A stretch of DNA of 64,000 nt, taken from the NCBI GenBank assembly GCA_944324285.1, contig CALUVR010000009.1:1-64000 (forward strand), written 5' to 3'. Made by a program: the position numbers and the translations under genes. Below the pieces are notes generated by a model that was not told the DNA's origin, searched no databases, and saw nothing but the letters and a program-made list of their open reading frames with translations. The DNA comes from Candidatus Gastranaerophilales bacterium (GTDB taxonomy: Bacteria; Cyanobacteriota; Vampirovibrionia; Gastranaerophilales; Gastranaerophilaceae). Of the stretch, positions 53,242 to 55,724 are shown piece after piece (position 1 is the first letter of the stretch; each line of letters opens with the position of its first letter).

Positions 53242-53838
53242 CTATATACATTCGATTTTAATAGCACCCTGACGAAAAATCTTTATTTTGTCATCGTCAA
53301 ACACTCCGGCAACGGTAGATTCCAAACCTTTACAGAAGCAGCCGTAATCTTCAATGACTAAATCAGCAAGCCCTTCCATATTCTCTTTTGCCTGTTCGTA
53401 GGTTTTAGCAGAAGGCTGATGAGAAAGGTTAGCACTTGTTGTAGCCAGAACATGCCCCGGTGCAATTTCACAGATTTCTCTGAAGACCTCGTTATCCGGA
53501 ACTCTTATACCAACAGTATCCATGCCGGAGGTTATATAATCAGGCGTCAGGTCGGGATTTTTTTTCACAACAAGCGTCAATGCACCCGGGAAATATTTTT
53601 TTATAAGTTTTTGTCCGATTTTCGGAATTATTTGAACATAATTCAACAAATGATATGTTTCATTAGACATTAAAATCAAAGGTTTTTGTGCTTCTCGTTT
53701 TTTAATATCATAAATTTTTTTAACTGCTTTTTCTGATGAAGGAAGGCAGCCCAGTCCCCAGACGGTATCTGTGACATAGGCGATTACTCCGTCATTTTCC
53801 AGTACTCTTTTTATTTCTTCTTTATTTTTTATTAGCAT
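53242..53838 (-). CDS. tsaC: Threonylcarbamoyl-AMP synthase
   Basis: A 198-residue Sua5/YwlC/YrdC-family enzyme making threonylcarbamoyl-AMP for the t6A modification of tRNA. Motifs: YVTDTVWGLGCLPSSEKAV, KREAQKPLILM, FPGALTLVVKK, VGIRVPDNE and TTSANLSHQPSAKTY. It lacks the C-terminal Sua5 domain. AAAGGAGAAACTT precedes the ATG. Confidence 0.93.
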   Translation of the reverse strand: MLIKNKEEIKRVLENDGVIAYVTDTVWGLGCLPSSEKAVKKIYDIKKREAQKPLILMSNETYHLLNYVQIIPKIGQKLIKKYFPGALTLVVKKNPDLTPDYITSGMDTVGIRVPDNEVFREICEIAPGHVLATTSANLSHQPSAKTYEQAKENMEGLADLVIEDYGCFCKGLESTVAGVFDDDKIKIFRQGAIKIECI

Positions 53839-53861: not shown

Positions 53862-53890
53862 TTGAAATTCTTAAAAAAATACGTTATAAT
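53862..53890 (+). promoter_or_regulatory. Strong promoter of an antisense RNA
   Basis: TTGAAA (53862-53867), a 17-base spacer, then TATAAT (53885-53890). The spacing is optimal and 11 of 12 bases of the two hexamers fit or nearly fit consensus. It points away from tsaC into a region with no plus-strand gene. Confidence 0.7.
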
Positions 53891-53896
53891 ATAAAT

Positions 53897-54008
53897 ATAA
53901 GGGAGTTGGCTAAGCTCCGTGAAAGCTCAACCAACTTATCACCCCTTTAATTGATTACAGCTAAAATCAATTTAACTAAAAGCTCTATTACCAGTAGAGC
54001 TTTTTTAA
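53897..54008 (+). ncRNA. Candidate antisense antitoxin RNA
   Basis: A predicted transcript of about 110 bases from the promoter at 53862. It could form AGCT/AGCT with TTGG/CCAA near its start, then the perfect hairpin AATTGATT-acagctaa-AATCAATT (53949-53972), and a terminator AAAAGCTCTA/TAGAGCTTTTTT at 53978-54006. It is antisense to the last three quarters of the small peptide ORF on the minus strand. Start and end are predictions. Confidence 0.6.
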
Positions 54009-54027
54009 TTGCTTTTAGTTTCATCAT
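53947..54027 (-). CDS. Small hydrophobic peptide, candidate type I toxin
   Basis: A 26-codon ORF starting MMKLKAIKKALLVIELL and continuing hydrophobic with one Lys to a final Asn. It could form a single amphipathic, cationic membrane helix. AAAGGAGGT lies a few bases before the tandem ATGs, one of the strongest ribosome sites in the window. A complementary ACCTCC lies in the leader at 54074-54079. It follows murJ on the same strand by about 95 bases. The ORF spans the hairpin of the opposite strand's terminator, so coincidence must be considered. Confidence 0.5.
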   Translation of the reverse strand: MMKLKAIKKALLVIELLVKLILAVIN

Positions 54028-54029
54028 TT

Positions 54030-54079
54030 GACCTCCTTTCCGCCCATATCTACCACTAATATGTCGTGACGCTGGAGGT
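54030..54079 (-). promoter_or_regulatory. SD/anti-SD hairpin in the peptide leader
   Basis: GGAGGT of the ribosome site (54031-54036) is the exact complement of ACCTCC at 54074-54079 upstream in the same transcript. Pairing would mask the ribosome site, as in known type I toxin mRNAs. Confidence 0.45.
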
Positions 54080-54122
54080 TTTTCAGGGCTACCCTTTATA
54101 TTTAATTTTCAAAGTTCATTCC

Positions 54123-55724
54123 TTACTTTTTGAACTTTGCGGCAAGGCGATTGAAAAGTTCTTGCGCATAATCCATCTTCATTAGTAAGTTTAATTCAAT
54201 ATAAACTGCAAGGCAGACAACTCCGATTATACAGATTTTTGTTAATTCAAACACGTATTTCGGAAGTTCCACAACCCTGTCGTAAACTAAAGACATTACA
54301 CCACAGACAAGAAGAGTCACAAAACCTGCTATACACATTTTGAAAAGGTTTACGAAAAGTGTTTTGTAATCCATTCTCATCTTTTTTGTAATCAGAACGC
54401 CTAAAACAACCGCGTTAAATAAGGTCACAAGAGATGTGGAAAGTGTAATTCCGCCGATACTCATGTGCATTATGTTTATAAAAAGAATATTCAAAAGGAC
54501 TTTAAGTACAATTGACGAAAACGCCACAACAAACGGGGTCACAGAATCATTGAAAGAGTAATACACTCTTGTGATTGAATCTCTGAAAACGTAAGGCAGA
54601 ATTGATACAGACAAAAACCACAAAGCCTCGGTTACCATAAATGTAGCCTTAGCATCAAACGCGCCGCGTTCAAAAACAATCCTTACCCCGTCAAGCCCGA
54701 CAACAAGAATGCCGATTATAATGGGGATTGCGCCGAAAAATAATACACCTACACCTTTGTTAAAATAATTTTTTATACCGTCATAATCCTTATCTGCAAC
54801 AAGCCTTGCAAAAATCGGGAAAAGAGGAACAAGAAAAGCCGTCACAAGAATTCCAACCGGAAACTGAAACACTCTGTTTGCATAACCGATAGCAGTCCAT
54901 GCACCCTCTCTTAAGGCTGATGCAAAAAACATATCTACATAAATATGAATTTGCCCGACAGTCGAACTTAATACGGCAGGAAAAAGGAGTTCGCAAATAT
55001 TTTTATATTCAACATTATTAAACACATCCAGATTAGGTTTCAGCCTAAACCCCAGCTGCCTTATTTTCGGATACTGCATAACCCACTGAAAAACTGCACC
55101 GATAGTTGTAGCCCAGGCAAGAATTGCACCTGTATTATCCTTGCCGTTTGCTCCCATTACCATCGCAATTATCACAAGCGACATAATTATAGGTGACAGG
55201 TTCGGAAGCATAAAGTATCTGTAAGTTACAAGAATTCCGTAATAAATTCCGACAATTCCGCCGATAATCAAAACAGGCGACATAATTTTTAAATGTTCAG
55301 CCGCAAGGGAAATCAACTGAGCGTCCCCGCCCGAGGCGATTATACCCATAATCTGCGGGGCAAAAAAGTAACAGAGAACCGCAAGTATTGTAAAAAATAT
55401 TATGGTAGTTGTCATAAAAGTGCTGTATAGCTTATTTACCACCTCTTGAGGCTTTTCGTTTAGATTTGGAATAAGTTTTGAAAAAACAGCAACCGTTGCA
55501 CTATGGAAAGGACCGCCAACCCCGCCGAGTAAAATTATTGCCAAAGCCGGAATTTGATACGCATAAAAATATGCGTCAGAAACCGTTGAGGCGCCGTAGT
55601 AATTTGCTATTACCACATCCCTTATAAAACCTATTAATTTTGAAAATATCGTAACTACTGCAATCAGCCAGGCTGCTTTCAAAAGCCCTGACGATTTATC
55701 ATCACCAGATGTCGAATTTGTCAT
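54123..55724 (-). CDS. murJ: Lipid II flippase MurJ
   Basis: A 533-residue MOP-superfamily protein with about fourteen membrane helices, which moves lipid II across the inner membrane. Family features are SKLIGFIRDVVIANYYGAS, the PIFARLVAD region, and FERGAFDAKAT followed by LPYVFRDSITRVYYSFND. It overlaps the end of the SpoIID-like gene by 23 bases. Confidence 0.93.
   Translation of the reverse strand: MTNSTSGDDKSSGLLKAAWLIAVVTIFSKLIGFIRDVVIANYYGASTVSDAYFYAYQIPALAIILLGGVGGPFHSATVAVFSKLIPNLNEKPQEVVNKLYSTFMTTTIIFFTILAVLCYFFAPQIMGIIASGGDAQLISLAAEHLKIMSPVLIIGGIVGIYYGILVTYRYFMLPNLSPIIMSLVIIAMVMGANGKDNTGAILAWATTIGAVFQWVMQYPKIRQLGFRLKPNLDVFNNVEYKNICELLFPAVLSSTVGQIHIYVDMFFASALREGAWTAIGYANRVFQFPVGILVTAFLVPLFPIFARLVADKDYDGIKNYFNKGVGVLFFGAIPIIIGILVVGLDGVRIVFERGAFDAKATFMVTEALWFLSVSILPYVFRDSITRVYYSFNDSVTPFVVAFSSIVLKVLLNILFINIMHMSIGGITLSTSLVTLFNAVVLGVLITKKMRMDYKTLFVNLFKMCIAGFVTLLVCGVMSLVYDRVVELPKYVFELTKICIIGVVCLAVYIELNLLMKMDYAQELFNRLAAKFKK

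Follow-up and report, generated by a model that had tools for sequence, protein, structure and literature searches.

A candidate type I toxin-antitoxin module of an undescribed family, located between murJ and ywlC in Gastranaerophilales

Results

Locus and its parts

The locus lies in a window of 64,000 nucleotides (the whole stretch of DNA analysed, contig CALUVR010000009.1 of a Candidatus Gastranaerophilales bacterium), between two genes that we take, from the preliminary description or from their sequence, to be murJ (54123-55724, minus strand) and ywlC (53242-53838, minus strand), and it is oriented as both of them. The following parts were assigned.

53947..54027, minus strand: peptide ORF (putative toxin) of 25-26 aa, hydrophobic and cationic; match to the A-type profile with E 4e-6
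54031..54039, minus strand: Shine-Dalgarno sequence (SD) AAAGGAGGT, with an unpaired probability of 0.00 when the whole mRNA is folded and of 0.83 once the 5' leader is removed
54074..54079, minus strand: leader anti-SD ACCTCC, partner GGAGGT; from the fold, CCTCC enrichment in A leaders and a helix kept in A4
54051..54056, minus strand: direct repeat, leader copy GTGGTA, upstream of the SD; from the family-wide repeat test
53937..53942, minus strand: direct repeat, 3'UTR copy GTGATA, directly after the stop codon; from the family-wide repeat test
54092..54096, minus strand: arm AAGGG of helix P1, mRNA 5' end; from the fold and the 5'-3' covariation test
54085..54088, minus strand: arm CCCU of helix P2, its partner AGGG past the stop codon; from the fold and the complementarity test
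53904..53936, minus strand: mRNA terminator hairpin, followed by the P1 3' arm CCCTT; covarying stem in A4
53862..53890, plus strand: antisense RNA promoter TTGAAA-17-TATAAT, 11/12 matches
53897..54007, plus strand: predicted antisense (antitoxin) RNA of about 110 nt, its ends placed by promoter and terminator
About 53978..54006, plus strand: antisense terminator hairpin and U-run within the peptide codons; from synonymous resampling, fold and covariation

The preliminary description had proposed a type I toxin-antitoxin locus at 53862-54079, and every part which it named is present there: a 26-codon ORF for a cationic hydrophobic peptide, an SD ahead of ATGATG, a leader ACCTCC able to mask this SD (which is closed in the fold model), and on the opposite strand a near-consensus promoter with 17-base spacing and a terminator whose RNA overlaps the ORF, the hairpin lying inside the codons. 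The interval itself has to be extended, as the mRNA must begin upstream of it, at about 54098.

The window peptide, MMKLKAIKKALLVIELLVKLILAVIN, begins with ATGATG and carries a net charge of about +4 (counted); it contains no proline, ends in AVIN and has the length of one helix. The second ATG (54022-54024) is better spaced from the SD and aligns with the start of homologues. The predicted antisense RNA starts in the toxin 3'UTR and ends at the terminator hairpin inside the codons. In 3.5 kb we counted 7 promoter-like sites (10.1 in shuffles) and 5 terminator-like sites (3.2 in shuffles), so that the promoter and terminator matches of the window are unremarkable by themselves and the argument depends on structure and conservation. 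The promoter scan gave no minus-strand promoter of at least 9/12 at the start of the window mRNA, and mRNA promoters of at least 10/12 are few in the family (19/82 copies, versus 3/82 when shuffled); read-through from murJ may therefore supply the window mRNA.

Searched with the peptide models, the window genome gave a single copy for the A type and no copy for the B type. At the murJ site the module was detected in 4 of 80 named murJ loci (L028, L031, L034 and L035), and in L029, L030, L036 and L075 murJ and ywlC adjoin directly, the module being absent.

Several side observations concern the same region. Just downstream of murJ, L032, L033 and L039 contain a small GIY-YIG endonuclease-like ORF (judged by eye) beside GATCCTGAAACAAGTTCAGGATGACA-like palindromes, and the murJ-ywlC junction may be an insertion hot spot. 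The records L031, L080 and L090 are labelled Brachyspira, Clostridiaceae and Fusobacterium, with MurJ 66-91% identical to that of the window, and are probably mislabelled. Elsewhere in the window, translation of one strand of the intergenic segment 52151-52462 contains LPLRERVSEGRVRG, which looks like a translated repeat.

Size and distribution of the family

A DNA search of the 13 genomes of the genus revealed several sites with related loci, whose peptides differ. Low-scoring matches were not counted where the promoter stretch alone matched (for example L002, L021, L025) or where no module was seen (L017, L022, L023), and L003 is an unrelated terminator hairpin. For the wider survey, a pattern composed of the SD, its spacing and the opposite-strand promoter was used, with the same pattern read backwards as a control. 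Matches were obtained in 84 of 383 genomes and 23 of 41 genera of one Gastranaerophilales family, versus two matches of the reversed pattern in the family genomes; four of the pattern matches (G001:C148, G010:C21, L115 and L132) have no family ORF and are read as chance, hence the pattern counts are slightly high. Merging gave 146 intact copies, of which 82 were left once near-identical leaders had been removed. Besides near-identical leaders, promoters two mismatches off were left out of the counts, with the exception of L064, L087 and L093. Copies were assigned to the subfamilies A, B, C and E by a rough text rule, which misfiles some of them (for example L125, L154 and L131). Subfamily B (SITEKALLLILLIIALK) includes, for example, L018, L056, L123 and L126.

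Peptide profiles of the A and B type matched 57 and 58, respectively, of 292 genomes sampled across the phylum. All these matches fall in the family of the window apart from one marginal B match in another family of the order (E 0.0018), and neither profile had a match outside the order among the 292 sampled genomes. A class-wide search with the B profile (74/289 genomes) gave matches exclusively in the window's family. In the order-level search 219 of the 241 genomes belonged to this same family; two of the 22 genomes from other families matched, one plausibly (G402), the other (G397) judged not to be a plausible member. At 13 loci the copies stand in tandem arrays of two or three.

Two true members were recognised among 63 pattern matches on viral contigs. 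L266 (IMGVR_UViG_3300011008_002740) is a C-type copy on a contig with an integrase-like ORF, and L270 (IMGVR_UViG_3300021400_000707) is a B-type copy accompanied by terminase-like, portal-like and capsid-like ORFs, all judged by eye. The mRNA ends of L270 could pair over 11 bases, in a sequence unlike the usual AAGGG/CCCTT. One peptide searched against phage records and one against plasmid records gave no match, nor did the A profile against PDB.

Selection on the peptide and on the antisense RNA

For pairs of close copies (85% identity or more) pN/pS is 0.26, a value to be read with the synonymous sites themselves being constrained, and it rises to 0.57 and 0.70 in the more distant bins, which would be expected if many of the hydrophobic residues can replace one another. 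Judged by these codon comparisons, the peptide is under purifying selection.

The codons also carry the predicted end of the antisense RNA. An intragenic antisense terminator is found in 28/33 A and 31/33 B copies (59/66 together), while synonymous resampling that preserves the peptide leaves a mean of 2.55 (maximum 6) for A and 1.15 (maximum 4) for B; only 1/9 C and 4/7 E copies contain it. Among 18 A-type relatives 19 of 44 consensus pairs are changed on both sides, pairs of the ORF hairpin included, and the ten pairs of this hairpin show no broken cell. To avoid circularity the antisense promoter was evaluated at 27 loci for whose selection only the peptide profile had been used. Each of the 27 has, on the opposite strand and 15-115 nt beyond the stop codon, a promoter of at least 10/12; this includes all 16 loci outside the pattern set, for which two control stretches gave 3/16 and 2/16. 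Taken as comparative evidence, these results indicate that both products, peptide and antisense RNA, are under selection. The sister genomes thus bear out the preliminary description in the comparative checks that it had proposed: they retain the peptide along with an antisense terminator that covaries, close copies have more synonymous than nonsynonymous change per site, and loss of the ORF with retention of the hairpins, which would have spoken for a plain terminator, is rare (L143, L153 and L221, versus 146 intact copies).

Structure of the mRNA

The predicted mRNA (53896-54102, minus strand) folds with -62.8 kcal/mol, z -4.2 versus shuffles; in the optimal fold 5' AGGG is paired with 3' CCCU, a second leader stretch with bases following the stop codon, and ACCUCC with GGAGGU. 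The predicted antisense RNA, 3.9 sd below its shuffles, forms separate hairpins and has a U-run at its end. Across the family, complementarity of the 5' end to its own 3' end scores 9.77 (8.18 with ends exchanged) and to its own post-stop bases 7.72 (6.52 exchanged), with 0/5000 permutations in both cases. The 5'-3' test is weaker inside the subfamilies, at 1, 17, 7 and 171 of 5000 for A, B, C and E. Paired words change together, as in AAGCCC/GGGCTT, AAAGTC/GACTTT and CGTTTCC/GGAAACG, and CCTCC occurs in 25/33 A-type leaders, compared with 1.0 in shuffles. By prediction and covariation, the toxin mRNA would be structured and translationally inert.

According to the fold model the A-type SD has an unpaired probability of 0.057 in the full-length mRNA, 0.057 in the nascent and 0.058 in the 3'-trimmed form, and 0.58 when the 5' leader is removed. 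Activation from the 3' end in the manner of hok or aapA is not supported, as 3' trimming leaves the SD closed. Since the modelled SD opens only without the leader, the folds point to 5' processing rather than to 3' trimming of the aapA type. Processing at the 5' end occurs in tisB, zorO and dinQ.

Direct repeat beside the SD and the stop codon

A short word located upstream of the SD recurs just after the stop codon, its sequence varying between copies (GCGACAA, GTGATA, ACGAAGAAA, AGTTAAGA, CTGTAAA, GTTGAACAA, ACTTCGATTTC). In 49 A, C and E copies the shared word has a mean length of 6.92 nt, versus 4.79 with leaders and 3'UTRs exchanged (0/5000 permutations), and it reaches at least 6 nt in 39 of the 49 copies, where 9.4 are expected; two neighbouring region pairs, used as controls, were not significant. 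In the window the two words (GTGGTA/GTGATA) differ by one base, which gives a G.U pair with the antisense RNA, and the repeat is exact in the near relatives L011, L209 and L213. Presence of the word at both sites means that the predicted antisense RNA could also pair beside the ribosome site. We regard a direct repeat near the SD, as detected by these comparisons, as a newly described feature of the module. The B copies have no significant repeat between leader and 3'UTR and so must recognise each other in another way; they keep the antisense promoter, the intragenic terminator and the paired ends.

Mosaic copies

Compared with L009, which occupies the same site, the window copy is 98% identical in the leader and 92% in the 3'UTR, but only 71% in the ORF. 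For the window ORF, identity reaches 95% with the ORF of L213, a copy in a different genome with an unlike upstream flank (57%). From this distribution of identity we infer that peptide cassettes have been exchanged between copies.

Discussion

Proposed mechanism and alternative explanations

The locus, in our view, very probably belongs to an undescribed family of type I toxin-antitoxin modules, as the preliminary description had supposed for this lineage. Statistics of the sequence establish the predicted peptide, the antisense promoter and terminator, the repeat, the anti-SD and the covarying ends; transcription, repression, the order of unlocking and toxicity are inferred. The mRNA would be made in a locked form, with its ends paired through P1 and P2 and the leader anti-SD lying over the SD. 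Driven by a strong promoter, an antisense RNA of about 110 nt would run from the toxin 3'UTR through the last two thirds of the codons, stop at the hairpin hidden in them, and pair fully with the 3' half of the mRNA, while the same antisense stretch could, by means of the repeat, also pair beside the ribosome site. Loss of the antisense RNA together with opening of the leader, perhaps by 5' processing, would allow synthesis of a single-helix membrane peptide, which would harm the cell or slow its growth.

The most serious competitor is a small membrane peptide under the same antisense control that is not a toxin, for example a regulator of a membrane enzyme or an envelope peptide induced by stress. 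The comparative evidence all concerns regulation and coding, and several known single-helix peptides of similar size are regulators, both of which count for such a peptide. We nevertheless consider it unlikely, as many dispersed, tandem and phage-borne copies with varied peptides in one locked design are more readily understood as a selfish or addiction-like module than as a housekeeping regulator.

Position between murJ and ywlC on their own strand, together with two terminator hairpins, would also be expected of a plain terminator or attenuator that overlaps a chance ORF. This we find barely credible: the same module stands at many unrelated places, the two genes adjoin without it in the four loci named above, the ORF is retained with its SD and under purifying selection, and the hairpins are constrained beyond what the peptide requires; with hairpins lacking an ORF in only three sister copies, such an explanation is largely refuted. 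Dispersal of the copies, presence or absence at one site and short inverted repeats at both ends could in turn indicate a MITE-like mobile element, the terminal repeats of which would account for the pairing of the mRNA ends. The end repeats, however, vary from copy to copy with matching changes (for example AATACAGGGT/ACCCTGTATT, ATAAACGGGGCA/TGCCCCGTTTAT, GAGGAC/GTCCTC), unlike transposase sites, and a mobile element would leave promoter, terminator, direct repeat and SD helix unexplained, which makes it a highly improbable sole explanation. The two are compatible if the toxin-antitoxin module is also mobilised.

Going beyond the single locus, it is possible, and we propose it tentatively, that the type I modules of Gastranaerophilales form a superfamily whose members are insulated from one another: antitoxin specificity would reside in a short exchangeable word (the repeat and the paired ends), peptide cassettes would be swapped between copies and the antitoxin terminator would be placed in the leucine-rich codons of the toxin. 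Multiplication in tandem arrays and carriage by phages suggest that such modules may serve, in the gut, in conflict between phage and host or in the maintenance of elements. The dozens of matched leader/3'UTR words could allow a direct test of how antisense specificity and insulation of type I paralogues evolve.

Comparison with known systems

A small hydrophobic peptide with its own SD and apparently under coding selection, and a predicted antisense RNA gene overlapping the toxin mRNA, would place the locus in the type I class. No family was found in Pfam, NCBIfam, PHROGs or PADLOC at E up to 1 (up to 10 in Pfam for the window peptide) with 5-9 peptides per library, sensitivity being low for queries of 24 aa, and Rfam gave nothing at gathering thresholds in the window; its sub-threshold matches near the locus (STnc230, RefA9 and others, E 0.16 to 4.1) are attributed to chance or to generic terminator resemblance. 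A search of the open-access literature on type I systems, cyanobacteria, Gastranaerophilales, Melainabacteria and T1TAdb yielded no description of this family, and in that literature msoT1/msoA1 of Microcystis was the only type I system found reported for Cyanobacteria. According to the Microcystis report, Proteobacteria, Firmicutes and Tenericutes had until then been the only groups with known type I systems (PMC12390103). With the present family, an entire lineage of gut bacteria, non-photosynthetic relatives of cyanobacteria, would join them; some species of this lineage have many copies per genome, and further copies occur on phage contigs.

In txpA/RatA and bsrG/SR4 of Bacillus the antisense RNA overlaps the 3' end of the toxin mRNA, as it is predicted to do in the module described here, and the TxpA and BsrG peptides are longer than that of the module. 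Neither of these two systems is known to have direct repeats or paired ends. TxpA/RatA is described as acting by RNase recruitment and BsrG/SR4 by SD sequestration (PMC12390103). The msoT1/msoA1 system belongs to the same phylum and likewise has an antisense RNA directed against the 3' part of the coding sequence and the 3'UTR, but MsoT1 has 63 aa and two predicted helices, whereas the peptide here has 25-26 aa and the length of one helix; the predicted toxins of the Microcystis study range from 39 to 81 aa (PMC12390103).

A locked primary mRNA with paired 5' and 3' ends, in several chromosomal copies, is shared with aapA/IsoA of Helicobacter and with hok/sok (PMC6733600). In aapA the long-range pairing itself masks the SD and 3' cleavage unlocks it (PMC6733600); in the model of the present module the SD is masked by the leader anti-SD and stays masked after 3' trimming.

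With fst/RNA II of par(pAD1) the module has in common convergent promoters, direct repeats, an SD-masking leader and a single hydrophobic helix; there the repeats let RNA II cover the fst start and leader structure masks the SD (PMC7472228). As in Fst/Ldr systems, the direct repeats lie near the SD and are crossed by both predicted RNAs in the 39 of 49 A, C and E copies mentioned above, the B copies giving no significant repeat. Unlike Fst/Ldr peptides (PMC7472228), the window peptide has no PXXXG motif, no proline and no charged C-terminal tail. The module also differs from par(pAD1) in having two separate terminators (53904-53936, minus strand, and about 53978-54006, plus strand) instead of a shared bidirectional one, in an antisense RNA that terminates within the codons and overlaps a much larger part of the mRNA, and in phylum. 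The preliminary description had named txpA/RatA and ibs/sib as parallels; the former holds for the overlap geometry, and the latter is less close. The closest regulatory parallel is par(pAD1), and for the geometry of overlap txpA/RatA and bsrG/SR4, rather than ibs/sib.
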